Assembly (NCBI GenBank): GCA_001603505.1
Contig: LUZC01000009.1
Span: 1 to 39,549, forward strand
DNA from: Bacteroidales bacterium Bact_11
GTDB lineage: Bacteria > Bacteroidota > Bacteroidia > Bacteroidales > UBA932
Reading direction: 5' to 3'
Length of the DNA stretch: 39,549 nt
A model generated the notes under the pieces. That model was not told the DNA's origin. It was given only the letters and a program-made list of their open reading frames with translations, and searched no databases. The translations under genes were made by a program, and so were the position numbers. Positions 18,570-33,713 of the stretch are shown here, one piece after another (the first letter of the stretch is position 1; every line of letters begins with the position of its first letter).

Positions 18570-18579
18570 CGGCAGGGTT

Positions 18580-20226: not shown

Positions 20227-20246
20227 CTTTTTTTCTAAATTCGTTA

Positions 20247-20281
20247 CAAAAATAGTGGTAAAACACTTAACAAAAAACAAA
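20247..20281 (-). promoter_or_regulatory. Promoter for the TPR-EnvC unit
   Basis: On the minus strand 20254-20247 reads TATTTTTG, a TAnnTTTG match, 20 nt before the ATG at 20226. Candidate -33 elements (TTTG on the minus strand) lie at 20271-20274 and 20278-20281, with spacers of 16 and 23 nt, which bracket the usual 19-21. Confidence 0.45.
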
Positions 20282-20303: not shown

Positions 20304-20330
20304 ACGCAACATTCCGCCCCCTTTCTGCAT
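20304..20330 (+). promoter_or_regulatory. Putative ECF-type autoregulatory promoter of sigma/barrel pair 1
   Basis: ACGCAA (20304-20309), 12 nt, then TTTCTGCAT (20322-20330), 16 nt before the sigma start at 20347. Nearly the same arrangement, ACGCAA, 11 nt, TTTCCGCAT, stands before the second sigma gene at 33713-33688 on the other strand. No good TAnnTTTG element precedes this gene. The promoter role is inferred from the repeat of the motif. Confidence 0.4.
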
Positions 20331-20346
20331 CTATTTATGGCAAGCG

Positions 20347-20904
20347 ATGAGTGAAACTGCGAAATACGATGAGGCAGAACTGATTGCCGCCTGTACCCGT
20401 GGGGACAGAAACGCACAGAGGATGCTGTATGAGCGGTACTCATCGGTCATGTACCCGGTTTGCGTCCGTTATTTGGGCAGGGAAGAGGCGAGAGACGTTT
20501 TGCAGGACGGCTTCCTGACGGTCTTTGACAAGATTGGTACTTTCAAGGGAGAAGGCTCTTTTGAGGGATGGATGCGGAAGATTTTCGTCAATGCCTCGCT
20601 GATGCATCTTCGCAAAGCGGATGCGTTGCGGTATACGGAAGACATCACCGAGTCGCCCGAGTTGGGCGGGGTGATGGAGCATGGCGTGATGGAGCAGATC
20701 GGGACGAAGGAGATTCTGGATCTGGTGGCGCAGCTGCCGTCCGGATTGCGAAGTGTTTTCAACCTGTTTGTACTGGATGGCTACTCCCACGCGGAAGTGG
20801 GGGCGATCCTCGGCATCACCGAGCAATCGTCCCGCTCCCAGGCAAGCCGTGCGAGAAGCCTTTTACAAGAAAAGATAAAAAAGTTATATAATGGAAAACA
20901 TTGA
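20347..20904 (+). CDS. ECF-family RNA polymerase sigma factor, pair 1
   Basis: The protein has 185 residues. Region 2 is visible as EARDVLQDGFLTVFDKIGTF with the following GWMRKIFVN, and region 4 as LPSGLRSVFNLFVLDGY followed by the helix-turn-helix HAEVGAILGITEQSSRSQASRARS. It should direct RNA polymerase to a small regulon and be held by the protein encoded just downstream, whose start lies 14 nt inside this gene. It resembles the Bacteroidetes ECF sigma factors encoded with outer-membrane-barrel anti-sigma proteins. It differs in sequence from the second sigma factor at 33103. Confidence 0.92.
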   Translation: MSETAKYDEAELIAACTRGDRNAQRMLYERYSSVMYPVCVRYLGREEARDVLQDGFLTVFDKIGTFKGEGSFEGWMRKIFVNASLMHLRKADALRYTEDITESPELGGVMEHGVMEQIGTKEILDLVAQLPSGLRSVFNLFVLDGYSHAEVGAILGITEQSSRSQASRARSLLQEKIKKLYNGKH

Positions 20905-22078
20905 GTTCGACAAGATCCTTCGGGATCGACTCGAAGGAGTGACTGAGGCGGCGCCCGATGTCTGGGAAGGCATCAGCCAGGGGTTGGCACGACGTCATCG
21001 CCGCGTGGTGATGCGCCGTTTCTCCATGGCTGCCGTGGCTGCCGCTGCCGGTCTGGCGATCGCCCTGCTGGTCATCCGCGATCCGCGCGACGGGAAGTTG
21101 CCAGAAACACCGGTACGTACGGCCCATGCGCTGCAGCAGGAGCAACCGGCTGCCGAAACCCCGGCCGTGGACGTGCTTCCGATTCAGAAGCAGATCGCTG
21201 CATTTACCAGGAACCAGGTCACAGCCCAGGCTGTCGTCGAAAAGCCCGCCGACATGGCGGTAGTCCCGCCGATGGTCTCCGAAGAAGAGACGGTCGCAAC
21301 GGCCGAAACGGCCGAAACAGCCGAAACGCCTGAGACCCCCGCGGCCGAAGAGGTCCGGGATCAGGAGACGCAGCCGTCGCAGGATCATCTGCTTACCGAA
21401 GCGGATCTTCCCGCCGGTTTCTGGACGGCCGAAGACGAAGCCATTTCCCGCAAGACACACACATCCAACATATCCATATTATCCAATCTTACGACGGTCG
21501 GTTCCGACAACGACCTGATCTACAAGGCCAGTCCGATGCACTCCTCGTCGCAGACCGGCAACCGGGCATCGTCGATGGTGGAACCCTATTCGGATTCTCC
21601 GAAGTTCTTTTCTCCGCTGAGCCTGGGTCTTCAGGTGGAAATCCCGATCGTCGACAGGCTCTCCGTTTCGACGGGCCTGACCTATTCTTACCTGGTGTCG
21701 CAGTACGACATGCTGGTCGACAAGGTGCTCTACGAAGGAGCCTACAACCAGCTCCATTACGTGGGCATTCCGCTGACGCTTTCCTACCGTTTCGTGGAGA
21801 CCCCCCATTTCGGTTTCTACGTGTCGGCAGGAGCAGCGGCCGAGAAATGCGTGTCGCAGCGCTATGTGTTCGGCAGTAACGTGCTCCACGAGAAAGTGGG
21901 CGGCCTGCAGTGGTCGGCCAAAGCGGGGTTGGGTGCCGAATACTGGTTCGTTCCGCGTTTCGGTTTGTATTTCGATCCGAGCCTGGTGTACTTCTTCGAC
22001 AACAGCCAACCGTTCAGCATCCGCACGCAGCAGCCTCTTCAGGCACGGTTTGAAGTGGGCTTGCGCTTCAAGATTTAA
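20891..22078 (+). CDS. Envelope-spanning anti-sigma-like protein with outer-membrane beta-barrel (Dma-like), pair 1
   Basis: The protein has 395 residues in four parts. Residues 1-43 are a short cytoplasmic domain (FDKILRDRL, DVWEGI) of the kind seen in Bacteroidetes anti-sigma factors. Residues 44-62 are one inner-membrane helix. Residues about 65-225 are a Pro/Ala/Glu/Thr-rich periplasmic linker with a TAE repeat. The rest is a beta-barrel of the porin/PorT type, with alternating strands from about residue 233 to the C-terminal RFKI. One chain would then link inner and outer membrane. This matches dual membrane-spanning anti-sigma (Dma) proteins reported in Bacteroides. It starts inside the sigma gene. 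Exact orthology is not established. Confidence 0.8.
   Translation: MENIEFDKILRDRLEGVTEAAPDVWEGISQGLARRHRRVVMRRFSMAAVAAAAGLAIALLVIRDPRDGKLPETPVRTAHALQQEQPAAETPAVDVLPIQKQIAAFTRNQVTAQAVVEKPADMAVVPPMVSEEETVATAETAETAETPETPAAEEVRDQETQPSQDHLLTEADLPAGFWTAEDEAISRKTHTSNISILSNLTTVGSDNDLIYKASPMHSSSQTGNRASSMVEPYSDSPKFFSPLSLGLQVEIPIVDRLSVSTGLTYSYLVSQYDMLVDKVLYEGAYNQLHYVGIPLTLSYRFVETPHFGFYVSAGAAAEKCVSQRYVFGSNVLHEKVGGLQWSAKAGLGAEYWFVPRFGLYFDPSLVYFFDNSQPFSIRTQQPLQARFEVGLRFKI
21299..21334 (+). repeat. Four tandem 9-nt units in the periplasmic linker
   Basis: Units acggccgaa, acggccgaa, acagccgaa and acgcctgag encode TAE, TAE, TAE and TPE at residues 137-148. The unit length is a multiple of three, so slippage would alter linker length and keep the frame. 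Confidence 0.85.
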
Positions 22079-22124
22079 GGCTGATTCTTTCCTGGGAAAC
22101 ACGCATTTTTTTGGTTTTTATAAT

Positions 22125-22153
22125 AAACGGTTAATCTTTTAACCGTTTTTTTT
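22125..22153. terminator. Intrinsic terminator after the sigma/barrel pair 1
   Basis: A perfect 10-bp stem (AAACGGTTAA with TTAACCGTTT) and a 4-nt TCTT loop is followed by a run of T to 22153. It lies 47 nt after the barrel stop at 22078 and reads on the plus strand. The stem is AT-rich, but the T-run is strong. Confidence 0.8.
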
Positions 22154-22171
22154 CTTGTAGGCTGTCCCGCT

Positions 22172-22179
22172 TATCTTTG
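22172..22179 (+). promoter_or_regulatory. Bacteroidetes -7 promoter element for yifB
   Basis: TATCTTTG matches TAnnTTTG and lies 25 nt before the ATG at 22205. The likely -33 element falls in the T-run at 22146-22153, which is also the terminator tail. An AGGGACGG stretch 4 nt before the ATG could assist initiation. Confidence 0.6.
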
Positions 22180-22204
22180 CAGGCGTACCAAATAGGGACG
22201 GATC

Positions 22205-23761
22205 ATGCTGAACAAATGTTATTGCGCCACCTGCATCGGGGTTGAGGCGGTGGTGGTGACGGTTGAGATAGACCTTTCTTCCACGGGAATCGGCATCCAT
22301 CTGGTGGGGCTGCCCGACAGCGCCGTGCGGGAAAGCCTGCTTCGGGTGGTCACGGCGCTTACTTCCTATGGCTTCCGGATTCCGGGGCGAAGGCTTGTGG
22401 TCAATCTGGCACCCGCCGACATCCGAAAGGAAGGCTCCGCATATGACCTGGCTATTGCGCTGGGAATCCTGGCCGTGTCGCAGCAGATTGAAATACCCTC
22501 GTGCGGCGATTTCATCATCATGGGGGAACTGGCGCTGGACGGTCGTCTGAGGCCGGTCAACGGCATCCTTCCGGTAGCGTTGCAGGCACGAGAGGAAGGG
22601 TTTCGGGGGTGTATCTTTCCCGCGGAATCGGCGAAGGAAGCGGCGGAAGTGGAAGAACTCGACGTGTATGCCGTCTCCACGCTGGCGGAGGCAATTGAAG
22701 TGTTGACCCGCCCGGAGGAATGTTCCCATCTCAAAGTGCGACCGATGCCTTCAGCGGTGGAGCCGTGTCTTTCACGGAATGATTTCAAACAAGTCAGGGG
22801 ACAGGCGGTGGCCAAGCGGGGACTGGAGATTGCCGCTTCGGGCAGCCATAATCTGATTTTAGTCGGCAGCCCGGGAAGTGGCAAGAGCATGATGGCCTCC
22901 TGCCTGCCATCCATCTTGCCGCCGATGACGCGCGACGAAGCCATTGAAACGGGTAAAGTATATTCGGTGGCAGGGCGGGGTTCGGGCTTTTCAGGATTGA
23001 TGCGGGAACGTCCTTTCCGGGCTCCGCACCACAGCGCGAGCCTGGTGTCGCTGGTGGGCGGCGGGCCGCAGGCTGGTCCCGGGGAAATCAGCCTGGCGCA
23101 CCACGGGGTTCTCTATCTCGACGAAATGGCACAATATCCGCGCAGTATCCTCGATGCGCTCCGGCAGCCGCTGGAAGACGGATGCGTGACGATTTCGCGG
23201 GCCAAATATAAGGTGATGTATCCGGCTTCGTTTATGCTGGTGGCTTCGATGAATCCCTGCCCCTGCGGATACTACGGTGATGATTCTGGGCGCTGTACCT
23301 GTCCGCGAGGGGCTGTGGAAAGCTACCTGTCGCGGATTTCCGGCCCGATGATGGACCGGATCGACTTACAGATCTTCGTACGGAGCCTGTCTCCGGCGGA
23401 GTTGCTCGGGCGGACGGATGCTTCCGGTGCCACGGCAGCAGGGGAGAGTAGTGCGGTAATTGCCGCGCGTGTGGCCCGGGCCCGGGCCATTCAGGCCCGT
23501 CGCTTCGCAGGAACGGGAATCTTTACCAATGCGGCGATGAGCGCCCGGCAACTGGAACAGTTCTGTCCGCTGTCGCCGGAATGCCGCACGACGCTCGAGA
23601 AGATTCTCGACCGGATGGGCCTCTCGGCCCGGGCCTACACGCGCATCTTGAAGGTGGCCCGTACGATCGCCGACCTCGCAGGTGCGACCGACATCCAGCC
23701 GGCGCATCTCCTCGAAGCCGCCGGCTTCCGCTTCCTCGACCGGAAACGGATGATCGATTGA
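22205..23761 (+). CDS. YifB/ComM-family AAA+ ATPase (Mg-chelatase-like)
   Basis: The protein has 518 residues, the normal size. An N-terminal Lon-protease-like fold (residues about 1-170, with GLPDSAVRES and KEGSAYDLAIALGIL) precedes the AAA+ module. Walker A is GSPGSGKS at 221-228 and Walker B is LYLDEMAQ. The segment MNPCPCGYYGD and the C-terminal helical domain are typical of this family. ComM-type proteins act as hexameric branch-migration helicases in recombination and transformation. It is a single gene with its own promoter. Its stop lies 15 nt from the convergent SIS gene. Confidence 0.93.
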   Translation: MLNKCYCATCIGVEAVVVTVEIDLSSTGIGIHLVGLPDSAVRESLLRVVTALTSYGFRIPGRRLVVNLAPADIRKEGSAYDLAIALGILAVSQQIEIPSCGDFIIMGELALDGRLRPVNGILPVALQAREEGFRGCIFPAESAKEAAEVEELDVYAVSTLAEAIEVLTRPEECSHLKVRPMPSAVEPCLSRNDFKQVRGQAVAKRGLEIAASGSHNLILVGSPGSGKSMMASCLPSILPPMTRDEAIETGKVYSVAGRGSGFSGLMRERPFRAPHHSASLVSLVGGGPQAGPGEISLAHHGVLYLDEMAQYPRSILDALRQPLEDGCVTISRAKYKVMYPASFMLVASMNPCPCGYYGDDSGRCTCPRGAVESYLSRISGPMMDRIDLQIFVRSLSPAELLGRTDASGATAAGESSAVIAARVARARAIQARRFAGTGIFTNAAMSARQLEQFCPLSPECRTTLEKILDRMGLSARAYTRILKVARTIADLAGATDIQPAHLLEAAGFRFLDRKRMID

Positions 23762-23776
23762 CGCCGAAGGCGATGG

Positions 23777-24550
23777 TTACACGCCGGCGACGCGGGTGCG
23801 GTATTCCTTGATGCAGGCGTCGAGGCGTTCGTGGGCGGTGGTGTCGCCCGGCACGTTGTGCGACGGGTGGATGTAGAGCTTGACGCCGCGCTGCTCAAGG
23901 ATTTCAGCCACGGTGCCGAGCGTCATCCACACGGTGGTAACGAATGCCATGGTCGAAAGCGGGCCGATCTTGTCGAACTCCTTGTCCATCTTCACGGAAG
24001 CGTCCTGCAGCGGGCAGCAGGAATCCACCACGTAGTCGGCAATCTGGAAAAGGTTCTTGCCGCAGGAGTGGCGCGGAACCTTTTCGCCGGTTTCCGAGGC
24101 GGAGCCGAACACGATGACCTTCATGCCGAGGCGCTTGGCTTCGAGGGCGACGTCGATGTTGACGGCGTTGATGCCGGTGTGCGAGAAGATCCATACGCAG
24201 TCGCGCTTGTCGAAGTTCCAGCTGCTCATAATGGTCTTGCCGTAGCCTTCGGTGCGTTCCAGGAACAGGAACTGGTTGATACCCATTTCACCGACAATGT
24301 GGGTGAAAAAGGTCAAAGGGATTTCGCAAAGGGGATGGAAGCCCACGAATCCGCCGATGCGGGGATACATCTCCTCGATGGGCAGGTTGGCGTGGCCGCA
24401 GCCGAAGGTATGGATCCAGCGACCGGCCTCGATGGTGTCGGCCATCACTTCCGCCACCTTGCGGATGTTTTCCATCTGGGTGTCTTCGATCTTGTCCATC
24501 ACGGCGATGGCGTTCTTTTTCCACTCTTTTGCGTACTTTTGGGTAATCAT
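23777..24550 (-). CDS. SIS-domain phosphosugar-binding protein (COG4821-like)
   Basis: The protein has 257 residues and one SIS domain. It has FGCGHANLPIEEM after the first strand and FSHTGINAVNIDVALEAKRLG, the phosphosugar loop and following helix, later. The size fits the UPF0309/COG4821 group, not MurQ etherases, which are near 300 residues and have a GAGTSGRLG motif. Members bind phosphorylated amino sugars and may act as isomerases. It is the last gene of the unit with NamZ, GH18, ROK and MFS, so its substrate may be a phosphorylated amino sugar made by the ROK kinase. An etherase or isomerase role is a guess. Confidence 0.75.
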   Translation of the reverse strand: MITQKYAKEWKKNAIAVMDKIEDTQMENIRKVAEVMADTIEAGRWIHTFGCGHANLPIEEMYPRIGGFVGFHPLCEIPLTFFTHIVGEMGINQFLFLERTEGYGKTIMSSWNFDKRDCVWIFSHTGINAVNIDVALEAKRLGMKVIVFGSASETGEKVPRHSCGKNLFQIADYVVDSCCPLQDASVKMDKEFDKIGPLSTMAFVTTVWMTLGTVAEILEQRGVKLYIHPSHNVPGDTTAHERLDACIKEYRTRVAGV

Positions 24551-24561
24551 ATCGGTGTTCG

Positions 24562-25716
24562 TTATTTGTTGTTCTTATTGGCAGATTTGAGGGCGATGGG
24601 CACGATGACCATCATCGCAACGATGGCGGTGAACATCAGCGCCGGAAGGGTGGCGTAGCGGCCGAGCACGAAGGCGTTGCCGGTGAGCCGGTTGAAGGTG
24701 AACTGTCCCAGCAGGGCGATGAAGATGGCGATCGACATGGCCGTGCCCGACTGGCTGCGGAACGCACCGCCGATGTAGTTGAGCACCACCGGGAACGTGG
24801 CGCCCACGCCGAATCCGATGAGGGTCATGGCGATGCAGGCGCCCGTAGCGCCGTTGCAGAACGTATAGAGCACCACGCCGCCCAACGCCACGGTCAGATA
24901 GGTATAGAGGGTGCCGATCGCCTTGAGCTTCCGCTGGATGGCGCCCAGCGGGAAGCGTCCCGCCATCATTCCGATGGTGAACCAGGTCATCGCCAGTGTG
25001 GCGGCCTTCGTGCCCATGGGGGTGGTCTGGTTAAAGAATTCCACCGTGTAGCTGCCGCTGCATCCCTCGAAGCCGCTCTCGAAGAAGAGGACGACCGCGA
25101 ACAGCAGCAACGCCGGATACTTCAGCAGCCCCAGCGACTTGCTCAGCGACACGTTCTCCGACGGCTTGGCGGCCGGGAAGGCGATGAGGCAGAAGAACAC
25201 GATAAACAGGGCCATCACGCCCGAAATCGCATTCAACGGGATGCTGTAGTCGGGAAGGAATACGTTGAGCAGGGTCCAGAGCAGGGCGCCGATGCAGTAG
25301 AAAGCACCCAGCACACCGAGCCGGCCGCCGCGCTTGTCATCGTCGTAGATATCGGCGACCACGGCGTTGGTCAGGCCGTTGAGGATGCCGCCGCCCAGTC
25401 CGAGACAGAAAATCGATCCGTGCAGCAGGTAGAGATCGCCCAGTCGCGCCAGTCCCTGGATGCCGGCCAGCGCCAGGACGGAACTGATCACCAGCAGCCA
25501 CTTGTAGCCGAAACGGTCGACGACTGGCCCGAAGATCACCGTGCCCAGGATGATGCCGATCGACATGGTGGAAGGCAGGGAAAGGGCGCCCTCGCCCGCG
25601 ACGAGCTGGAGCTTGCCCAGGATGGGGGCCAGCGAAAGCATGGTCACCCCGAAAAAAGCCATTCCCGCGCAGGCGGCCACGAAAACGGCGGTGGTGTTAT
25701 AGGTTTTAGCAGTCAT
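24562..25716 (-). CDS. MFS sugar transporter
   Basis: The protein has 384 residues and about twelve hydrophobic segments. The loop between helices 2 and 3 reads GPVVDRFGYKW, which fits the MFS signature GxxxDRxGR/K. The second half starts near residue 195 (LLKYPALLLFAVVLFFESGFEG), as in fucose-permease-like sugar transporters. It should import a sugar across the inner membrane by cation symport. Its position between the ROK kinase and the SIS protein points to uptake of the sugar released by the NamZ and GH18 lipoproteins. Gaps are 6 nt to the kinase gene and 11 nt to the SIS gene. Confidence 0.85.
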   Translation of the reverse strand: MTAKTYNTTAVFVAACAGMAFFGVTMLSLAPILGKLQLVAGEGALSLPSTMSIGIILGTVIFGPVVDRFGYKWLLVISSVLALAGIQGLARLGDLYLLHGSIFCLGLGGGILNGLTNAVVADIYDDDKRGGRLGVLGAFYCIGALLWTLLNVFLPDYSIPLNAISGVMALFIVFFCLIAFPAAKPSENVSLSKSLGLLKYPALLLFAVVLFFESGFEGCSGSYTVEFFNQTTPMGTKAATLAMTWFTIGMMAGRFPLGAIQRKLKAIGTLYTYLTVALGGVVLYTFCNGATGACIAMTLIGFGVGATFPVVLNYIGGAFRSQSGTAMSIAIFIALLGQFTFNRLTGNAFVLGRYATLPALMFTAIVAMMVIVPIALKSANKNNK

Positions 25717-25722
25717 ATCCTG

Positions 25723-26634
25723 TTACTTTTCTGTTTCCCAGATGGCCAGGAAGGCGGCACCCAGCAGGGCGGCGTCTCCGCCGGTTTCCGCCGCGCAGAA
25801 GCGTACCTCGCGCATGGAGATCGGCTGTCCCCAGCGGCAGGCTTCGGTGTAGATCCGGTCGATGAATGCCGTGGCGGGACCGAATACGCCGCCGCCGAAG
25901 ATCACTTTCTGCGGATTGAATAGGCTCACGAGGTTGGCGGCCCCCATGCCCCAGAGCTGAATGGCCTTGTCGAGGATCTGCGTAGCGACGGGATCCTTGC
26001 CATAGCCGGCGAACACGTCGTAGCTGCTCTTTGCCGGATCGGCGTACAGCAGCTGCGCCTGATGGCCGATGCCGTTGCCGGAAGCGTAGTATTCAAAGCA
26101 GCCCACGGGCCCGAATTCTTCGCGCCAGGGCGATTCCAGTGCCATCCAGCCGGTGGCGCCCACGATGTCGCTGGCCCCGTGGATCACCCTGCCGTCGAGC
26201 AGGATGCCCGCGCCGATGCCCGTCCCGACAGCCAGATAGATGGCATCGGTGCATCCGCGGGCAGCTCCTTTCCAGACCTCGCCGAGGATGTAGCAGGTGC
26301 GGTCGCTTTCAATGGCCACGCGCACCGAGGGATCGCCGATGGCCTCTTCCAGTTCCCGCTGCAGGGGATAGTCGTCCCATCCGGGAATATTGGGCGCCCA
26401 CACGGTGCCTTTTTTCGAGTAGACGATGCCGGGCACGCACACGCCCACCGCTTCCACCGGCAGGTCGGGCCGCTGCCTGCGCAGGTCCGTGACTGCTTCG
26501 GCCACGAGCCCGCCCACGGCGGAACCACTGGCGCCTTCCAGCAGCCGGTACGATTTGCAGATGATTTCGCCGTTGCGGTCGAACAGGGCCGCCGCAATCT
26601 TCGTTCCTCCGAGGTCGATGCCGATGACAGCCAT
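25723..26634 (-). CDS. ROK-family sugar kinase-like protein with altered sugar/zinc motif
   Basis: The protein has 303 residues. The ATP-binding loop GIDLGGTK is at 5-12, and a second phosphate loop AVGTGIGAG is at 135-143. Asp111 in IESDRTC is at the place of the catalytic base. The usual ExGH motif is replaced by ATGW at 160-163, and of the zinc-binding cysteines only Cys179 remains (FGPVGCFE). The sugar pocket therefore differs from glucokinase and GlcNAc kinase. It should phosphorylate the sugar brought in by the adjacent MFS protein, but the substrate is not readable. It follows the GH18 gene by 9 nt. Confidence 0.8.
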   Translation of the reverse strand: MAVIGIDLGGTKIAAALFDRNGEIICKSYRLLEGASGSAVGGLVAEAVTDLRRQRPDLPVEAVGVCVPGIVYSKKGTVWAPNIPGWDDYPLQRELEEAIGDPSVRVAIESDRTCYILGEVWKGAARGCTDAIYLAVGTGIGAGILLDGRVIHGASDIVGATGWMALESPWREEFGPVGCFEYYASGNGIGHQAQLLYADPAKSSYDVFAGYGKDPVATQILDKAIQLWGMGAANLVSLFNPQKVIFGGGVFGPATAFIDRIYTEACRWGQPISMREVRFCAAETGGDAALLGAAFLAIWETEK

Positions 26635-26643
26635 ATGCAGAGG

Positions 26644-27804
26644 TTAGTTCGTCATGACGGCGTTCCAAACGGCCGTGCGGAGCGTTCCTTTGGCGTCGTC
26701 CTGGTCGTATTCCCAGTACATCAGACCCAGCATGCCTTTCTGGCGAACCCAGTCGCCCTTGATGGCGATGCTGCGCGGGTTGTCGTAGCCGCAGAAGAAG
26801 TCGCCGCCCATGGTTTCCACATAGGGGCACTGGGCGATCTCGTCCCACTGGTTGCGGCGGTACTTGGTGCGGTCGTAGGTAAGGATGCTCTTGTAGGTGA
26901 TGGCCGTCGGCTTCTGGCTCCAGGAATGGCGTCCGTAGAAGGGGATGCCCAGCACCAGTTTCTTCGGCGATACGCCGGCGTTGAGATAGGCCTGGACCGA
27001 ACGCACGCAGTCCTTGTATGCCCGGGAGTCACTCAGCGCGGAGTGGTGGTGCGGCGCCTCGTCGAGGTCGTAGGTCATGATGTTCACATAATCGACATAT
27101 GGGTCCATCCCCTTGATGTCGACGTAGCGGTATCCGCCGGTAACGGCCACCTTGTCGGTGCAGTAGCCGGCGTAGGAAAGTTCATAGTCGGATCCCAGCG
27201 TCTCGCGGAGCTGTTTGACCAGCAGCACGTAGTTGTCGGTGTCGCAGGAAGGGTCGCACTCCGCACCGCTCCACGACAGGCCGGGGAACTCCCAGTCGAG
27301 GTCGATGCCGTCGATGCCATATTTCTGCAGGAAGGCAAGGCAGTCTTCCGCAAAGGCCTTCCGGTTGGATTCGCTCTTGGACAGGGCCGAGAAGCTGCCG
27401 CCCTGCTTGTTGTCGGAGTTCGACACGCCGTGGGTGAAACTCAGGCAGATCTTCAGGTCGGGATTACTCAGCTTGAGCGCCACGATGCTCTCGAAGCGGG
27501 CCTCCTTGCCCTGCAGCTTGAATCCCTGGTACACGCCGTCCACCATGTAGAGTTCCGCAAAGGCATAGTTGATGTGCGTCACGATGTAGGCGTCGGGAAT
27601 CAGGGAACCGTAGTAGGTCACGTAGGCCGTGGCGTGACGGCCGTCGTAGATGGGCTTGTTGCGCGCCACCACCGGCTCGACGATTTCCGGATCGACCTCC
27701 GGCTCCGGCGTGGGTTCCGGCTCGGCACCGAGAGGATCTTCGCAACCGACGGTCATCCACAGCGCGGTGAAGAGGCAGAGGAACGGGATGAATCTATTCT
27801 TCAT
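26644..27804 (-). CDS. GH18 lipoprotein (chitinase/endo-N-acetylglucosaminidase type)
   Basis: The protein has 386 residues. The start at 27804 gives a lipoprotein signal with lipobox TVGC (Cys21); a longer frame to 27885 is rejected. An acidic proline linker (residues 28-44) leads to a TIM barrel with the GH18 motif DGIDLDWE at 165-172, Glu172 being the acid/base. The strand motif VDYVNIMTYDLD and the late MYWEYDQD are also typical. It acts on beta-1,4-linked GlcNAc polymers or glycans at the cell surface or in the periplasm. Its start overlaps the NamZ gene by 11 nt, which suggests that both act on the same substrate. Confidence 0.88.
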   Translation of the reverse strand: MKNRFIPFLCLFTALWMTVGCEDPLGAEPEPTPEPEVDPEIVEPVVARNKPIYDGRHATAYVTYYGSLIPDAYIVTHINYAFAELYMVDGVYQGFKLQGKEARFESIVALKLSNPDLKICLSFTHGVSNSDNKQGGSFSALSKSESNRKAFAEDCLAFLQKYGIDGIDLDWEFPGLSWSGAECDPSCDTDNYVLLVKQLRETLGSDYELSYAGYCTDKVAVTGGYRYVDIKGMDPYVDYVNIMTYDLDEAPHHHSALSDSRAYKDCVRSVQAYLNAGVSPKKLVLGIPFYGRHSWSQKPTAITYKSILTYDRTKYRRNQWDEIAQCPYVETMGGDFFCGYDNPRSIAIKGDWVRQKGMLGLMYWEYDQDDAKGTLRTAVWNAVMTN

Positions 27805-28990
27805 ACAGCAGATACGGTTTTCGTTGTTCCTGGAAGCTGGCCACGTCATCGGCCCACATGGCCTTGATCTCGTCGGCAGAGGCACCTTCCTTGATCATCC
27901 TGCGCACATAGTCGCGGCCGATGAGCAATTCGAAGAACGAACGGAAGAAATGGTCGTCTAGGTTGAGGTTGCGGTAGGCGTCGATTACGTAGGTGAGGTT
28001 GATGCCTTCGGCATTGACTTCCTCATCGGAGGGAACGGTTCGCAGGTCAACGCCGTAGCACTTGCGGTCGAGTTGCGGCGGATTCTTGGCGCCCTCGATG
28101 CTGCGGGGCGTAAAGGAGAAGCGGTAGCCCAGCATGTTCGGATGCCCGTATACCTGGAAGGGCGCGCTTGTGCCCCTGCCAAGGCTTACCGGGGTTGCCT
28201 CGAAATAGCAGAGCGAGGGGTAGAGGTAGATCGACCGCATGTCGGGCAGGTTGGGTGAGGGTTTGACCGGGAGCACGTAATGCGACCGGTGGGTGTAATT
28301 CCGGCAGGGGATCACGGTCAGGTCGCAGCGGATGCCGTCGGGCAGCCAGCCTTCGCCGTTGATCATCAGTGCCAGTTCGCCGAGCGTCATGCCATGGCAC
28401 ACCGGAATAGGCCAATATCCCACACCGGACTTGTATTTCATGTCGAGGATCGGGCCGTCCACATAGAAGCCGATGGGGTTGGGCCGGTCGAGCACAACCA
28501 TCTTCTTGCCGTGCTGCGCGCAGACACCCATCATCTTGCCCATCGTCACGTTGTAGGTGTAGAAGCGGCAGCCCACGTCCTGCAGGTCGAACACCAGCAC
28601 GTCAAATTCCTCCACGGCTTCGTCGGAAGGGACACCGCCCTTGCCGTCGTAAAGCGACCGGATGGGAACGCCCGTCGGGCCGTCCACCGAGTTGCTCACC
28701 AGCTCGCCGGCGTCGGCCGTGCCGCGGAACCCGTGTTCCGGCGAAAAGATCGACACCACATTCACGCCGAGGGAAAGCAGCGTGTCGAGGACGTGCCTGT
28801 CGGAGGTAATCATGCCTGTCTGGTTGGAGAGGATCGACACCCGCTGTCCTTCGAGCAAGGGCAGGTATGCCCCAATATCCGTCGCTCCGGGAAGGATGTC
28901 GGGCGTAGGGGCATATACGCGCGGCTGCGTAGCACAGGAAGCGAATGTCGCCAGCAGGGCCGCAAACAGGAAGATTTTTTTCATATCCAT
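27794..28990 (-). CDS. namZ: NamZ-type exo-beta-N-acetylmuramidase lipoprotein (DUF1343/GH171)
   Basis: The protein has 398 residues. The signal MKKIFLFAALLATFASC gives a lipobox FASC. The start at 28990 shares a base with the tsaE stop; an ATG two codons later (28984) is equally good. The DUF1343 pattern is clear: VSILSNQTGM, SPEHGFRG, FDLQDVGCRFYTY, VLDRPNPIG and GRGTSAPFQ. NamZ enzymes remove MurNAc from the non-reducing end of peptidoglycan fragments, as shown in Bacillus and Tannerella. The family covers the full length here. With the downstream GH18, kinase, transporter and SIS genes it points to cell-wall sugar salvage. Confidence 0.88.
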   Translation of the reverse strand: MDMKKIFLFAALLATFASCATQPRVYAPTPDILPGATDIGAYLPLLEGQRVSILSNQTGMITSDRHVLDTLLSLGVNVVSIFSPEHGFRGTADAGELVSNSVDGPTGVPIRSLYDGKGGVPSDEAVEEFDVLVFDLQDVGCRFYTYNVTMGKMMGVCAQHGKKMVVLDRPNPIGFYVDGPILDMKYKSGVGYWPIPVCHGMTLGELALMINGEGWLPDGIRCDLTVIPCRNYTHRSHYVLPVKPSPNLPDMRSIYLYPSLCYFEATPVSLGRGTSAPFQVYGHPNMLGYRFSFTPRSIEGAKNPPQLDRKCYGVDLRTVPSDEEVNAEGINLTYVIDAYRNLNLDDHFFRSFFELLIGRDYVRRMIKEGASADEIKAMWADDVASFQEQRKPYLLYEE

Positions 28991-29403
28991 TAAAATAACA
29001 AGGTTCTTGTGTCGGCGTCTTCCACCAGGATCTGTACGTTCAGCGTCTCTTCGGGCAGGATCTCTTCGATCAGTTCCGGCCATTCGATCAGGCAGAGCGC
29101 CCCGGAATCGAAGTACTCGAAAACGCCGATGTCCAGCGCCTCGGAGAGGTGGCCTATGCGGTAGAAGTCGAAATGATAGACGGGTTTTCCCGCGCCGTTA
29201 CGGTATTCGTTGACCAGCGTGAAGGTGGGGCTGTTCACCACGTCCTGTACACCCAGCGCTTTGCACACGGCAGTGATGAAGGTCGTCTTGCCCGCACCCA
29301 TCTGTCCGTGGAACGCCACGATGGTGTGGTCGCCTAGATGGTCGAGGAAGGCCCGCGCCGCCCGCGGCAGATCGCCCGTTCCGTTGATGATAATCTCCGT
29401 CAT
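28990..29403 (-). CDS. tsaE: TsaE, ATPase of the t6A tRNA-modification complex
   Basis: The protein has 137 residues. Walker A is GQMGAGKT at 33-40, followed by NSPTFTLVNEY, HFDFYRIG and LIEWPELIEE, all typical of TsaE. It acts with TsaB and TsaD to make threonylcarbamoyl-adenosine at position 37 of ANN-decoding tRNAs in the cytoplasm. It is the first gene of the minus-strand unit leading into namZ, with which it overlaps by one base. This puts a near-essential tRNA enzyme under the same promoter as the sugar-salvage genes. Confidence 0.95.
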   Translation of the reverse strand: MTEIIINGTGDLPRAARAFLDHLGDHTIVAFHGQMGAGKTTFITAVCKALGVQDVVNSPTFTLVNEYRNGAGKPVYHFDFYRIGHLSEALDIGVFEYFDSGALCLIEWPELIEEILPEETLNVQILVEDADTRTLLF

Positions 29404-29409
29404 ATCCTA

Positions 29410-29417
29410 CAAAGTTA
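29410..29417 (-). promoter_or_regulatory. Bacteroidetes -7 promoter element for tsaE-namZ unit
   Basis: The minus strand reads TAACTTTG, a TAnnTTTG match, 6 nt before the start codon at 29403. TTG at 29442-29440 on the minus strand could be the -33 element with a 22-nt spacer. The mRNA would be almost leaderless. Confidence 0.55.
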
Positions 29418-29452
29418 GCAAAAAAAACCATGGGCGTCACAATTTCTTGGTA

Positions 29453-29483
29453 TTGACTCTTGTGGGAAAAATGGTGACCTTTG
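29453..29483 (+). promoter_or_regulatory. Promoter for feoAB
   Basis: TTG at 29453-29455, a 20-nt spacer, and GACCTTTG at 29476-29483 (one mismatch to TAnnTTTG) lie 19 nt before the ATG. I saw no obvious Fur box in this short region. Confidence 0.45.
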
Positions 29484-29502
29484 CAACATTAATTGAGCAA
29501 GA

Positions 29503-31830
29503 ATGACACTGAATGAGCTGAAGGTTGGCGGATGGGCGCGCATCGTGAAGGTAGGCGGCGGCGGATCGTTGCGCCAGCATTTTCTCGATATGGGCGTGAT
29601 TCCCGGAACGGTGCTGAAACTCACGAAACTGGCCCCGCTCGGCGACCCGATGGAGTTTTTGGTGAACGGCTACGCCTTGTCGCTGCGCAAGGCCGATGCG
29701 GCCGAAATCGAAATCGAGGAGGCTGAACCGGTCGATCCGGTCAAGGCCCCCGACGAACCCCATGAAGACGAACACCCCGGCTTGGGCGAGGGTGGCAAAT
29801 ACCACGACAAAAGCCACGAACACGCGCTCCCCGCCGGCACGGTCCTGACCTTTGCGCTGGCAGGCAACCAGAACTGCGGCAAGACCACGCTCTTCAACCA
29901 ACTCACCGGTTCCAACCAGCACGTCGGTAACTTCCCGGGCGTGACGGTCGACCGCAAGGACGGTGTTATCCGCCGTCATCCCGACACTCGCATCACCGAC
30001 CTGCCCGGTATCTATTCACTGGCGCCCTATACCTCGGAAGAAATCGTCTCGCGCGACTTCATCCTGAAAGAAAAACCTCACTGCATCATCAACATCGTGG
30101 ATGCGGGCAACATCGAGCGCAACCTCTACCTGACCATGCAATTGATGGAACTCGAAGTCCCGATGGTGCTGGCACTCAATATGATGGACGAGGTCCGCGG
30201 CAACGGCGGCAGCATCCGTGTGAATGAGATGGAGGAGGCGCTCGGCTTTCCCGTCGTGGCGATTTCCGCCGCCAAGAACGAAGGTATCGAGGAGCTCGTG
30301 GAGCACGCCGTGCACATCGCCCGCTACCAGGAGAAGCCGGGCCGTCAGGACTTCTGCGACAAGGATGACCACGGTGGCGCCGTGCACCGCTGTCTCCACG
30401 GCATCATGCACCTGGTGGAAGACCATGCCAAAAAGGCGGGCCTTCCGGTGCGATATGTGGCCAGCCGCCTGATCGACGGCGATCCGGCGGTGGAAGCGGA
30501 ACTCGACCTCCAGCAGAACGAAAAGGAGATGATCGAGCACATCATCGTGCAGATGGAGGAAGAACGCGGCCTCGACCGCAACGCGGCGATGGCCGACATG
30601 CGCTTTGCCTTCATCCGGAAGCTTTGCGCCAAGACGGTGGTCAAGCCGCACGAAACCAAGGAATATCAGCGCAGCCGCCGGGCCGACCGCATCCTGACCG
30701 GCCGATGGACGGCTATTCCGATCTTCCTGGCGGTTATCTCGCTGGTTATCTGGCTGTCGATCGACGTGCTGGGCGCCCCGCTCCAGGACTGGCTTGCCGA
30801 CGGCATCCGGTGGCTGGGGGCGAAGGCCGACACGGGGATGGAGCGTTGGGGCGTGGTTCCCGCTGTCCGTTCGCTGGTGGTCGACGGCATTTTCGGCGGC
30901 GTGGGTACGGTGGTCAGTTTCGTGCCGATCATCATCCTGCTGTTCTTTTTCCTGTCGCTGCTGGAAGACAGCGGCTATATGGCGCGTGTGGCGTTCGTGA
31001 GCGACAAGCTGCTGCGCCAGATTGGCCTGACAGGGCGGAGCATCGTGCCGCTGCTCATCGGCTTCGGCTGCAGCGTACCGGCCGTGATGAGCACCCGCAC
31101 GCTTCCTTCTGCCCACGACCGTCGCCTCACGGTCATGCTGACGCCTTTCATGAGCTGTTCGGCGAAGATTCCCATTTACGCTTTCTTCACGGCGGCGTTT
31201 TTCCCGGGTCACGGCGGCCTGGTGCTGGTGGTCCTGTATCTGTCGGCCATCCTGGTCGGCATTCTGGTGGCGCTGATTTCCAAACGGATCCGTCCGGACC
31301 GCGAGCCGGCGCCGTTTGTGATGGAGCTTCCCAACTACCGGTTGCCGGGCCTCAAGAACGTGGGGCATCTGCTCTGGGACAAAACCAAGGACTTCCTGCA
31401 GCGGGCTTTCACGGTGATCTTCGTGGCGTCGATCGTCATCTGGTTCCTTCAGTCTTTCAACTTCCGCCTGCAGATGGTGGAGGGGGGCGAAGGCAGTATG
31501 CTGGCGCAGATTGCCGGCGTGATCGCCCCGCTCTTCCAGCCGCTCGGCCTGGGCGATTGGCGCATCGTCACGGCGCTGATCACCGGTTTCCTGGCCAAGG
31601 AGGCGGTGGTATCGACGATGGAGGTGCTCGGCGTCGCGACGGCGCTCACGACCGTCACGGCCGTGGCGATGCTGGCTTTCTGCCTGCTCTACACGCCCTG
31701 CGTGGCGGCAATCGCCGCAGTCAAACGTGAACTGGGTGGAAAGAGGGCCGTCTGGATGGTGGTGTTCCAATGTGTCCTGGCCTGGCTGGTGGCTTGGCTG
31801 GCCTATAACATAGCGGAGATGCTCGTATGA
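29503..31830 (+). CDS. feoB: FeoA-FeoB fusion, ferrous iron transporter
   Basis: The protein has 775 residues. Residues 1-73 are a FeoA-type SH3-like domain. A linker (74-112) is rich in acidic residues and has five His (87, 91, 101, 105, 107). The FeoB G domain follows with G1 GNQNCGKT (121-128), switch segment GVTVDRKDG, G3 DLPG (166-169) and G4 NMMD. The membrane part starts near residue 400 and has the Gate motifs GFGCSVPAVMSTR and SCSAKIPIYA. It imports Fe2+ across the inner membrane. FeoA-FeoB fusion is common in Bacteroidetes. The gene overlaps the next by ATGA. Confidence 0.95.
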   Translation: MTLNELKVGGWARIVKVGGGGSLRQHFLDMGVIPGTVLKLTKLAPLGDPMEFLVNGYALSLRKADAAEIEIEEAEPVDPVKAPDEPHEDEHPGLGEGGKYHDKSHEHALPAGTVLTFALAGNQNCGKTTLFNQLTGSNQHVGNFPGVTVDRKDGVIRRHPDTRITDLPGIYSLAPYTSEEIVSRDFILKEKPHCIINIVDAGNIERNLYLTMQLMELEVPMVLALNMMDEVRGNGGSIRVNEMEEALGFPVVAISAAKNEGIEELVEHAVHIARYQEKPGRQDFCDKDDHGGAVHRCLHGIMHLVEDHAKKAGLPVRYVASRLIDGDPAVEAELDLQQNEKEMIEHIIVQMEEERGLDRNAAMADMRFAFIRKLCAKTVVKPHETKEYQRSRRADRILTGRWTAIPIFLAVISLVIWLSIDVLGAPLQDWLADGIRWLGAKADTGMERWGVVPAVRSLVVDGIFGGVGTVVSFVPIIILLFFFLSLLEDSGYMARVAFVSDKLLRQIGLTGRSIVPLLIGFGCSVPAVMSTRTLPSAHDRRLTVMLTPFMSCSAKIPIYAFFTAAFFPGHGGLVLVVLYLSAILVGILVALISKRIRPDREPAPFVMELPNYRLPGLKNVGHLLWDKTKDFLQRAFTVIFVASIVIWFLQSFNFRLQMVEGGEGSMLAQIAGVIAPLFQPLGLGDWRIVTALITGFLAKEAVVSTMEVLGVATALTTVTAVAMLAFCLLYTPCVAAIAAVKRELGGKRAVWMVVFQCVLAWLVAWLAYNIAEMLV

Positions 31831-32000
31831 ACATCCCCACTTTGATCGTTCTTCTGCTGGTCGTCGCGGCGCTCGTATTGGCCCTCATCCTGGGCCGCCG
31901 TACGGACGATCCCTGCCGCGGTTGTCACGGATGTGACCATCTTCAAAGCGTAAAGCGCAAACCCGTCCGCAAGTCGAACGAGAAAGGGTGCTCCCGGTAG
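31827..32000 (+). CDS. FeoB-associated Cys-rich small membrane protein
   Basis: A 57-residue frame starts at the ATG overlapping the feoB stop (ATGA). Residues 4-23 form one membrane helix (TLIVLLLVVAALVLALILG). The tail has CRGCHGC (Cys30, 33, 36), a further Cys55 and many basic residues. Size, position and CxxCxxC motif fit the FeoB-associated Cys-rich membrane proteins, which may bind iron or a cluster next to FeoB. Its last 58 nt overlap the convergent barrel gene on the other strand. The strict coupling and motif make it a real gene despite its size. Confidence 0.85.
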   Translation: MNIPTLIVLLLVVAALVLALILGRRTDDPCRGCHGCDHLQSVKRKPVRKSNEKGCSR

Positions 32001-33106
32001 TAACTTGGGAGCGTGCCTTTCATTGCGAAGTGCCAGGACACACCGGGTTCCGCGTACAGGCTGAGTCGGGAGGACAAGTTTACGTCGATGCCTGCCGCTC
32101 CCATCAGCGAATACTGGAAAGGATGCTCGTTGACGCACACGGCAACCGTTTTTTGACCGTCTTTTGATACGAAGCATCCGGCAGCCAGCCATTCGGCTTC
32201 GGCTCCCGCCGTCGCGTAGGCTTGCAGACGGTTCCATTGGCCAAGCCTGAGGGATGCCTTGAGCGGTATGCCGATGTAATGAAAGCTGTAGGAGCGGGTC
32301 TCTTGTTGCAGGGTTCCGGGAACCTTCTGCCCGCGGCCGTGGTGGAAACTATAGTCCATGCCGCTTTCCAGGCCGAAGACCGGGGTGATTTGATACCGCA
32401 GGGACAGGCCGGCCTTGATGGGGAGATCGTAGTCCCACAGATAGTTTTCCAGTGTCTTGAACCATTCGTCCTTCTCTGAAAAGGCGTTGGCATAGATGGC
32501 GTTCGAGAGGGCATTGGCCAACACTTCGATCTCGCCGATATCGTAGGGTGGAGTGGAAGATGTGGTCTGGTTGGCCGGTAATCCCGCAGAGGCAAATCCG
32601 TTGCGGGTTTGGAACTGTGTAAACAGCTGGGCGCTCCAGCGCCGGGCGGGGTTGTCCGGTTCTTCGGGCCAGAAGGCGTGTTGTCCGGTTGTCGTCTGTG
32701 GCGTGGATTCTGCCAGCGTTTCCGGCATATCGTCGTCCCGGGCAGGGACGTCGTCGCGTTGCGGGAAAGACGGCGTTTCGACGGGATTCTCCAGCAGGAG
32801 GGAGCTCGAAATAAAATCCGGGGATTGTGAGAGGTGACGCCGGGATGATTCGGGTATCGCCCGGGGACGGGACAGTTTTTCCGCCAGCAGGGTGACGGGT
32901 TGTTCGCCCATGAAGGCCGACGGGTATTGCAGGTCGGGACTCTTCTTGCGGCCGGGCAGCAGCAGGAAGACCGCCGCAACGGCAGCGGCGGATGCCAGTA
33001 GCCAGGGCCAGACTACACGGCGTCCGGACACTGCGTAGTCTGCCGGCACATCCAGTTCATATTCGTTCAGCCGGTCTTGAAACGATGATCTCCAGGAATC
33101 TTTCAT
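31943..33106 (-). CDS. Envelope-spanning anti-sigma-like protein with outer-membrane beta-barrel (Dma-like), pair 2
   Basis: The protein has 387 residues from the ATG at 33106, which overlaps the sigma stop (ATGA); a start at 33133 is less likely. A short cytoplasmic part (1-30, with SSFQDRLNEYELDVP) is followed by one helix at about 31-51. Residues about 52-190 are a low-complexity periplasmic linker, and a beta-barrel then ends in RTGLRFTL. The order matches the protein at 20891, but the sequences have diverged strongly. It should hold the partner sigma factor until a signal from the outer membrane. Its 3' end overlaps the Fe-associated small gene. Confidence 0.78.
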   Translation of the reverse strand: MKDSWRSSFQDRLNEYELDVPADYAVSGRRVVWPWLLASAAAVAAVFLLLPGRKKSPDLQYPSAFMGEQPVTLLAEKLSRPRAIPESSRRHLSQSPDFISSSLLLENPVETPSFPQRDDVPARDDDMPETLAESTPQTTTGQHAFWPEEPDNPARRWSAQLFTQFQTRNGFASAGLPANQTTSSTPPYDIGEIEVLANALSNAIYANAFSEKDEWFKTLENYLWDYDLPIKAGLSLRYQITPVFGLESGMDYSFHHGRGQKVPGTLQQETRSYSFHYIGIPLKASLRLGQWNRLQAYATAGAEAEWLAAGCFVSKDGQKTVAVCVNEHPFQYSLMGAAGIDVNLSSRLSLYAEPGVSWHFAMKGTLPSYYREHPFSFDLRTGLRFTL

Positions 33107-33663
33107 AAGGCTTTCCGATATTCGTGGATCCACTTGGTCAGGAGGGCCTTTGCCCTGTGAAGGTCGGAAGCGGAAGAGCTTTCGGCGATGCCGAGCAAGG
33201 TGGATATTTCTTTATGGCTCATTTCTTCGAAAATATACAGGTTGAATACGGTGCGGTAGCGGTCGGGCAGGCGGCGGATCATGTCGAGCAGTTCGTGTTG
33301 CGGTATGGCGGCGACATCGGGCGACTCATCCGGTTCCGGAAGGTCGCCCAGATTCTCGAGGGGCACGGTAGCCAGCCGCTTGGCGGCCCGCAGATGCTGC
33401 AACGCCTCGTTGACGGCAACCCGGCGGCACCATGCCTTCAGGGAACCGGTACCTCGGTTCTCAAACGTGTCGATACGTGTGTAGATACGGATAAACACCT
33501 CCTGCAGCAGATCCTTGATATCTTCGTCTTTTGGGGCATAGCGACTGCAGACCGCCGCCAGATAGCGGTGGTACAACTCGTAAAACAAGCGCTTCGCAGC
33601 GGGTTCCCCCCTGCGAAGCGCATCTATCAAGGCTTTCTCTTTCTCTGCAGAGAGCGGAATCAT
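33103..33663 (-). CDS. ECF-family RNA polymerase sigma factor, pair 2
   Basis: The protein has 186 residues. Region 2 is seen in DLLQEVFIRIYTRIDTF and AWCRRVAVNEALQHLR, and region 4 in LPDRYRTVFNLYIFEEM and SHKEISTLLGIAESSSASDLHRAKALL. It is of the same class as the sigma factor at 20347 and has the same layout, with the barrel anti-sigma-like gene directly downstream by ATGA overlap. The target promoters are probably related to the ACGCAA/TTTCYGCAT motif upstream of both sigma genes. Confidence 0.92.
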   Translation of the reverse strand: MIPLSAEKEKALIDALRRGEPAAKRLFYELYHRYLAAVCSRYAPKDEDIKDLLQEVFIRIYTRIDTFENRGTGSLKAWCRRVAVNEALQHLRAAKRLATVPLENLGDLPEPDESPDVAAIPQHELLDMIRRLPDRYRTVFNLYIFEEMSHKEISTLLGIAESSSASDLHRAKALLTKWIHEYRKAL

Positions 33664-33687
33664 CCGTCGTATGTTCTGCTATACCAA

Positions 33688-33713
33688 ATGCGGAAAAGCC
33701 TCATTCCTTGCGT
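33688..33713 (-). promoter_or_regulatory. Putative ECF-type autoregulatory promoter of sigma/barrel pair 2
   Basis: On the minus strand ACGCAA (33713-33708), 11 nt, then TTTCCGCAT (33696-33688), 24 nt before the sigma start at 33663. It repeats the motif before the first sigma gene (20304-20330) with one base change and a 1-nt shorter spacer. No TAnnTTTG element is seen in this 60-nt gap. Confidence 0.4.

Follow-up and report, generated by a model that had tools for sequence, protein, structure and literature searches.

In Escherichia coli, the sigma-E/RseA system is built on an envelope sigma factor of the extracytoplasmic function (ECF) class, which controls its own expression, a periplasmic folding factor and the short RNAs MicA and RybB. 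A different arrangement was recently described as the Dma family in Bacteroides thetaiotaomicron: according to excerpts of PMC13088901, an ECF sigma factor adjoins a protein with an N-terminal anti-sigma domain, a transmembrane (TM) helix, a disordered tether and a C-terminal barrel. In the same excerpts, deletion of dma2 places the genes of the dma2 operon among the most induced, as autoregulation predicts, and the published work reports altered vesiculation and polysaccharide loci while leaving the direct mechanism open (PMC13088901). In Bifidobacterium breve a protease-inducible serpin is under a two-component system (PMC8012564, in part), and in Flavobacterium the small RNA Rfp18 affects metalloprotease mRNAs (PMC9723704, in part). 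Here, we analyse two gene pairs of the Dma kind, sigA-dmaA (pair A) and sigB-dmaB (pair B), in 39,549 nucleotides of Bacteroidales bacterium Bact_11 (contig LUZC01000009.1). We call this whole stretch the window.

The two pairs probably form separate sigma/anti-sigma switches, each sigma factor reading its own promoter motif and its own set of genes. The genes downstream of the motifs suggest that the SigA pair serves a programme of envelope care, which would include a small RNA (RNA-A), and the SigB pair serpin genes. Gene anatomy, the motifs, their distribution and downstream genes, the conservation of RNA-A and the linkage to serpins were computed in this work. The window is contig C9 of an incomplete genome (G000, 1.88 Mb in 105 contigs, completeness 81%), hereafter the own genome. 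Counts of Dma genes and serpins refer to 37 genomes of the genus and counts of motifs to 40; three genomes (G209-G211) were outside the Dma search and were left out when motifs were compared with pair types. A genome was classed as A-type when it carried a dma orthologue at 59% identity or above. Scans with reversed motifs provided the chance control for promoter patterns.

The sequence-only reading had reported two ECF sigma genes, each overlapping a gene for a protein with a TM helix, a linker and a barrel. Both pairs are real (20347-22078 on the + strand, 33663-31943 on the - strand), and they comprise the following features.

20304..20332, + strand: motif A, ACGCAACATT-N13-GCATCT, presumed autoregulatory promoter, 14 nucleotides before the ATG of sigA
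20347..20904, + strand: sigA, ECF sigma factor of 185 residues (Sigma70_r2 5e-12, Sigma70_r4_2 1.6e-12)
20891..21019, + strand: dmaA residues 1-43, presumed cytoplasmic sigma-binding segment (column identity 0.79 over residues 1-36)
21020..21076, + strand: dmaA TM helix, residues 44-62 (hydropathy peak 2.46 at residue 44)
21077..21454, + strand: dmaA linker, about residues 63-188, with A, E, T and P abundant (identity 0.39)
21455..22078, + strand: C-terminal barrel region of dmaA, including what is presumed to be its first strand and loop (limits of the strand set by eye)
31943..32641, - strand: C-terminal barrel region of dmaB (OMP_b-brl_2 1e-7)
32642..32956, - strand: dmaB linker, about residues 51-155 (identity 0.20)
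32957..33016, - strand: dmaB TM helix, residues 31-50 (hydropathy peak 2.18 at residue 31)
33017..33106, - strand: dmaB residues 1-30, presumed sigma-binding segment (W5, F9, Q10, L13 and E17 invariant in 10 B-type proteins)
33103..33663, - strand: sigB, ECF sigma factor of 186 residues (Pfam regions 2 and 4)
33686..33711, - strand: variant of motif B, GCAAGGAA-N12-GCATTT, presumed sigB promoter, matched by the generic pattern, 22 nucleotides before the ATG of sigB

In both sigma factors, regions 2 and 4 score above their Pfam cut-offs, and the best match of sigA in the PDB is the sigma-E chain of 1or7. The dmaA gene (20891-22078, + strand) overlaps sigA by 14 bp. We corrected dmaB to 33106-31943 (- strand, 387 residues): the list of open reading frames (ORFs) had a GTG start at 33133, and we preferred the ATG at 33106, which overlaps the sigB stop by 4 bp (ATGA) and agrees with the MKD/MND start of B-type relatives. 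Hydropathy and sequence profiles agree on the domain order that had been proposed, i.e., a short N-terminal segment, one TM helix, a linker and a barrel. The C-terminal barrel domain of both Dma proteins was identified from sequence profiles. That of dmaB passes the OMP_b-brl_2 cut-off, that of dmaA alone stays below it (3.7e-4), and this profile is matched at 0.01 or better in six of the eight A-type members (best 1.9e-7) and in eight of the ten B-type ones. When compared with each other, the profiles of the A and B Dma proteins aligned with 99.7% probability over 155 columns, in the barrel only. Searches of the PDB by sequence gave no match for dmaA, and those with the B profile gave only three, to cullin-1, with E-values of 0.37-0.53.

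The distance from the end of the TM helix to a barrel assumed to have 190 residues is 143 residues in dmaA and 148 in dmaB, in line with the 140-160 residues first estimated for the linker. These lengths were obtained by subtraction, and since the smallest values among relatives come from proteins cut by the end of a locus, we claim no minimum. Lengths taken from the barrel profile were discarded, as the profile extended into the linker. P, E, T, S and A abound in both linkers, whose composition, length and low conservation would fit a disordered tether. This domain order next to an ECF sigma gene is the one given for Dma in the excerpts of PMC13088901, as the earlier reading had recognised, and it is on this layout that we place the two pairs as probable members of the family. 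The family is further marked by a cognate sigma factor of group ECF21 and by an N-terminal domain that binds and inhibits it. The two pairs have diverged (the sigma factors are 37% identical and the Dma proteins 21%) and fall in separate groups of orthologues, which rules out a recent duplication of one pair into the other. The suggestion of two parallel circuits is upheld by this divergence, by the different promoter motifs and by the different gene sets.

Pairs of this type are common in the relatives. The dmaA query found matches in 40 of 61 genomes and the dmaB query in 37 of them, the own genome included, and in a class-wide sample alignment A1 matched 17 of 149 genomes, again with the own genome. 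The 37 genomes of the genus have 86 merged Dma hits (0-7 per genome, weak barrel-only hits included). In nearly all loci read by ORF there was a Dma-type sigma gene just upstream, and among the loci read the sigma and dma genes overlap or nearly so. The hydropathy profile has a TM peak within the first 130 residues in 82 of the 83 distinct proteins adjoining Dma-type sigma factors. Net positive charge is higher on the N-terminal side of the helix in 67 of the 83 (16 lack this), as expected for an N-inside topology. Column identity among the A-type proteins (n=8) is 0.79 in the N-terminal segment, 0.81 in the barrel and 0.39 in the linker; the corresponding values for the B-type (n=10) are 0.67, 0.45 and 0.20. 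A tether with a binding function at each end would be expected to show this pattern of conserved ends and a drifting middle.

The own genome encodes a third pair on contig C39 (L005, 3076-end), the dma gene of which is cut by the end of the contig. Several relatives of this C39-type pair have a serpin directly downstream. Besides the RpoD-like protein (C14), nine proteins of the own genome match PF04542: three belong to pairs A, B and C39, and the remaining six have no ORF of at least 200 residues just downstream and are thus not Dma pairs. The seven named orthologues of pair A come from metagenome-assembled genomes of Bacteroidales or Bacteroidia (60-70% identity), and three of the seven titles mention water buffalo, sheep or goat omasum.

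A bipartite element was noticed by eye among the listed upstream regions; the form in front of sigA genes and of several serpins is motif A, and a variant in B loci is motif B. A generic ECF-like pattern has only two matches in the window, each directly before a sigma gene. It has 13 in the own genome (reversed control 2), of which at least three lie inside long ORFs and may be due to chance. Scans for the strict motif A (ACGCAACRTT-N-GCATCT) gave 112 sites, spread over 18 of the 40 genomes, and none with the reversed control. All 17 A-type genomes contain it, vs. none of the 20 others (Fisher 6e-11, in related genomes); it stands at 15 of the 17 A-type sigA loci, and the other two have a close variant.

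These 112 sites correspond to 107 distinct contexts, five being shared by the near-identical genomes G033 and G036. We took as downstream gene the longest ORF starting within 300 nucleotides of the site. The 107 contexts then include 14 sigA genes, 15 copies of RNA-A, eight transfer-messenger RNAs (tmRNAs), seven SurA_N_2/PPIase chaperones, six members of one short lipoprotein-like family, 55 other coding genes, and two sites without a gene (L206, at a contig end, and L319). A SurA_N_2/rotamase domain was found in all seven chaperone candidates scanned, and the tmRNAs were recognised by ARAGORN (8/8) and by Rfam (3/3 of those given). A hydrophobic N-terminus, as in exported proteins, is present in 54 of the 55 other coding genes, vs. 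seven of 28 window genes at the same threshold, and the 55th gene is another ECF sigma factor. The six lipoprotein-like proteins, at 1.62, fall short of the hydropathy threshold. Eight of the 55 are serpins, seven assigned by position and one (L217) by Pfam. The RNA-A, tmRNA and chaperone classes are independent evidence, because they had not been used to spot the motifs. At the level of the promoter motif this is the composition of a sigma-E-type regulon, with one motif shared by the sigma gene, a chaperone of the periplasm and a short RNA. In genomes with a more diverged dma orthologue (38-45%), ATGCAACATT replaces motif A before the sigma gene (9 of 11 genomes). The element ATGCAACATT-N-GCATCT has 18 sites in 15 of the 40 genomes, vs. 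one in the reversed control. A Dma-type sigma gene follows 12 of these sites, a Pfam-confirmed serpin two, another ORF three, and one is followed by none.

Some of the motif-A sites deserve mention in their own right. The motif lies directly upstream of the tmRNA gene at L209, L210, L212, L216, L222, L229, L284 and L332; control by motif A would place ribosome rescue under an envelope sigma factor. At L226 (contig C7 of G036) the gene behind the motif encodes another ECF sigma factor, a hint that sigma factors may form a cascade in this genome. At L201 (C40 of the own genome) the motif is followed by genes for radical-SAM-associated lipoproteins (TIGR04134) and then by a radical-SAM-like ORF. 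Five serpin genes (L231, L271, L302, L311, L326) have their start codon 7 nucleotides after GCATCT, and their mRNAs may be leaderless or nearly so.

RNA-A begins 4 nucleotides after GCATCT at 15 motif-A sites. Over its 67-70 nucleotides, GGTTTAGGTTTTAGTATATTA is invariant close to the 5' end, and a GC-rich hairpin leads into a T-run. The copy of the own genome is outside the window (C36:63580-63647). In the alignment 97.6% of the cells are paired and six of the 14 pairs show changes on both sides. Covariation is 0.372 vs. 0.268 when shuffled (0/500), and all slid controls are lower; the comparison is biased towards the structure, which was derived from the very sequences that were aligned. The covariance model scored at least 74 bits in 17 of the 18 motif-A genomes, the one without being G024 (83% complete), and 30-45 bits in further members of the genus and in genera elsewhere in the family. 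At 0.001, 42 of 100 genomes had a match. Five matches among the weaker ones fell outside the family. We read 13 weaker hits (L351-L363, taken in the genus and in four more genera of its family) and found GCATCT just upstream in all 13 and GCAAC in 12. A 16-nucleotide core, GGTTTAGGTTTTAGTA, is unchanged in the 15 aligned copies and in these 13, other genera included. Rfam 15 gave no match to RNA-A at the gathering score for the 20 loci given, 15 of which contain it. A 10-nucleotide match of RNA-A to the start of a transporter gene of the window, of the major facilitator superfamily (MFS), is at chance level.

The strict motif B has 19 sites in 12 of the 40 genomes (reversed control 1), and it occurs in 11 of the 13 B-type genomes vs. 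one of the 24 others (P 1e-6). The 19 contexts are distinct (some are from G033 or G036) and precede eight serpins, one sigB, small lipoproteins and other ORFs. Seven of these serpins start within 32 nucleotides of the motif and one at 176 nucleotides. In relatives with at least two serpins, motif B usually stands before a later serpin in a row serpin-serpin-sigB-dmaB. In the own genome, motif B precedes one lipoprotein gene and, as the loose variant noted above, sigB. Two genes of the window lie upstream of sigB.

33724..34959, - strand: serpin with a lipoprotein-like N-terminus, directly upstream of sigB (PF00079 6.7e-106)
34964..37423, - strand: DPP IV-type S9 peptidase, directly upstream of the serpin

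The hinge of this serpin (EEGSEAAAV) resembles that of inhibitory serpins, departing by two conservative changes from their P17-P9 consensus, ExGTEAAAA (PMC8233489, in part). A looser form of the hinge pattern fits 58 of 86 full-length serpins. The best solved match of the window serpin is miropin (5ncs, 6e-66). The end of what appears by eye to be the same S9 gene is found before the first serpin in several relatives, and the S9 protease and the serpin inhibitor might share a transcript with sigB-dmaB.

Serpins and Dma genes are linked in the genus. Among 107 serpins, 58 are within 5 kb of a Dma hit (2.1 expected) and 37 within 1.5 kb (0.9 expected), the expectations being based on rounded genome sizes, with kinship ignored and partial serpin hits at contig ends included. 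Conversely, 43 of the 86 Dma hits have a serpin within 5 kb. The numbers of serpins and Dma hits per genome are correlated (Spearman 0.85, 37 genomes), and the four genomes without a Dma hit also lack serpins. A serpin on the same strand is directly upstream in all 13 B-type loci (in one case a contig-end fragment). Nineteen serpins lie no more than 500 bp from a Dma hit, 15 of them downstream on the same strand and four convergent with it. Some serpins away from Dma hits carry motif A. The motifs do not explain every serpin: the generic pattern was found in 12 of 86 serpin upstream regions.

Several of our results speak against two motif-specific switches or against their link to serpins. The element before sigB in the window fits the loose pattern and fails the strict motif B. 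A motif lies directly before sigB in only two of the 12 B-type loci checked (L021 was omitted as a near copy of L020), and we slightly lowered our confidence for this reason. The window serpin has no motif match of its own; the element sits between serpin and sigB, so that control of this serpin by SigB lacks motif support. Neither motif was found within 160 nucleotides upstream of the C39 pair. Since the motifs were spotted by eye before sigma and serpin genes and then counted, these two classes are not independent evidence, and the kinship of the genus genomes means that the P-values overstate independence. Complements of the RNA-A 5' core near 1778 start regions were not above three shuffles, and a terminator scan of L200 did not list the RNA-A hairpin. 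As for serpins, 49 of the 107 are more than 5 kb from any Dma hit (some at contig ends), and only one of the 17 genomes with an A-type dma, G003, has a serpin within 5 kb of it. Outside the genus, only three of 13 serpin regions have an adjacent, divergent Dma-type pair, each in another family (the weaker hits G057:C107 and G056:C7 were omitted), and the class search showed no serpin in the flanks of about 1.5 kb of 27 loci.

We propose the following mechanism, in part from family precedent. The N-terminal segment of Dma would hold its cognate ECF sigma factor at the inner membrane, the flexible linker would tie the protein to its barrel in the outer membrane, and a change at the barrel would free the sigma factor. 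The binding of sigma by Dma, the spanning of the envelope, the reading of the motifs and the signal are what we infer. SigA would read the motif-A promoters of its own operon, a SurA-like chaperone, tmRNA and RNA-A, together with those of many lipoproteins and outer-membrane proteins and, in several relatives, serpins. It would work like sigma-E of E. coli, with RNA-A in the place of MicA and RybB, and RNA-A could act between the release of the sigma factor and the change of the envelope. SigB would read motif B, which most B-type relatives carry ahead of the serpin next to sigB. For the pairs linked to serpins, proteolytic attack at the surface would be the likeliest signal; this is the weakest step, suggested by the linkage and by the example of the B. 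breve serpin system that proteases induce (PMC8012564, in part). More broadly, and tentatively, Dma switches might be the Bacteroidota counterpart of sigma-E, in which a barrel serves at once as sensor in the outer membrane and as anti-sigma factor and governs a regulon of chaperone, tmRNA and lipoproteins with a conserved regulatory RNA of its own, and their sister copies might be sensors of protease attack that activate surface serpins; we give this broader view somewhat less than even chances. Two sets of genes, delimited by the promoter motifs, are open to direct tests, and the serpin link would say what some Dma sensors do in protease-rich guts.

The sequence-only reading associated the pairs with the control of vesicle formation. 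This finds no support here, since the motif-linked genes point to envelope care and serpins. One could still argue that the main role is vesicle formation and control of polysaccharide loci, as in B. thetaiotaomicron, with serpin and envelope genes as side effects: the layout is that of Dma2/Das2, whose deletion alters vesicle output (excerpts of PMC13088901), and many motif-A targets resemble lipoproteins or outer-membrane proteins. Yet what follows the 107 sites of motif A and the 19 of motif B includes a chaperone, tmRNA, an RNA and serpins, no SusC/SusD-type gene was recognised by eye at the motif sites (few targets were scanned with Pfam), and the word serpin is absent from the main text of the Dma2 paper (PMC13088901). 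We therefore regard such a role as unlikely. The barrel proteins might also be co-transcribed envelope proteins, another protein controlling the sigma factors, given that the binding of sigma by Dma is a prediction from sequence. The near-universal TM peak, an N-terminal segment conserved as the barrel is while the linker drifts, and the overlap or near-overlap of dma with the sigma gene all argue for an anti-sigma function, as do the genetics of Dma2/Das2 and, as cited there, of Dma1/Das1 (PMC13088901, in part), which makes this the most doubtful of the alternatives.

The neighbourhood of serpins and Dma genes could be an old gene cluster, inherited without any regulatory link. Most cases are indeed in one genus and the arrangement follows the pair type. 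However, the arrangements are too varied for us to give this explanation much credit (upstream in the B-type loci, downstream or convergent elsewhere, divergent in three other families), and motif A is also found at serpins away from Dma hits; we deem it quite improbable. RNA-A, in turn, might be an attenuated leader or a by-product of the motif-A promoter. The prediction of its targets did not exceed chance, and this possibility keeps a small but real share of our belief. It fits less well with a hairpin shared by 15 aligned copies, with compensatory changes and a terminal T-run, or with a core that stays constant in these and the 13 weaker copies, including those of other genera. We thus retain two Dma-type switches with separate gene sets as the preferred reading.

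Between the pairs, the region 23777-29083 (- strand) encodes a SIS-domain protein, the MFS transporter, a ROK kinase and a NamZ exo-muramidase, probably a cluster for peptidoglycan recycling. Divergent from sigA, at 17400-20280 (- strand), are genes for an M23 peptidase and a TPR protein. The place of sigA seems stable, because in L012-L018 sigA has neighbouring ORFs that by eye resemble these in size and start. Searches of the open-licence PMC literature (serpin, ECF sigma and Dma1; small RNA and Bacteroides envelope stress) found no link of the kind proposed here.

Like the sigma factor of the sigma-E/RseA system, SigA would act on its own gene, on a folding factor of the periplasm and on a short RNA. 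The sensors differ, being here a barrel tethered to the presumed anti-sigma factor and in sigma-E a protease cascade, and the putative targets of SigA include many lipoproteins, serpins and tmRNA. Rfp18 and RNA-A are both small RNAs of Bacteroidota, likened by description only; Rfp18 is linked to the expression of proteases, and no Dma-type sigma factor is named for it in the excerpts of PMC9723704. Miropin of Tannerella forsythia (PMC8233489, in part) is the closest solved relative of the window serpin, and no sigma linkage of it was seen among the literature matches listed. In B. breve, as here, a serpin gene adjoins a signalling system, which is a Gram-positive two-component system there and an ECF sigma factor with a barrel-bearing partner here, where induction by proteases is hypothetical. 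The Dma systems of B. thetaiotaomicron have the same gene and domain layout as our pairs, to which the window and its relatives add features absent from the excerpts of PMC13088901: defined promoter motifs, a set with chaperone, tmRNA and RNA-A, and the linkage to serpins.

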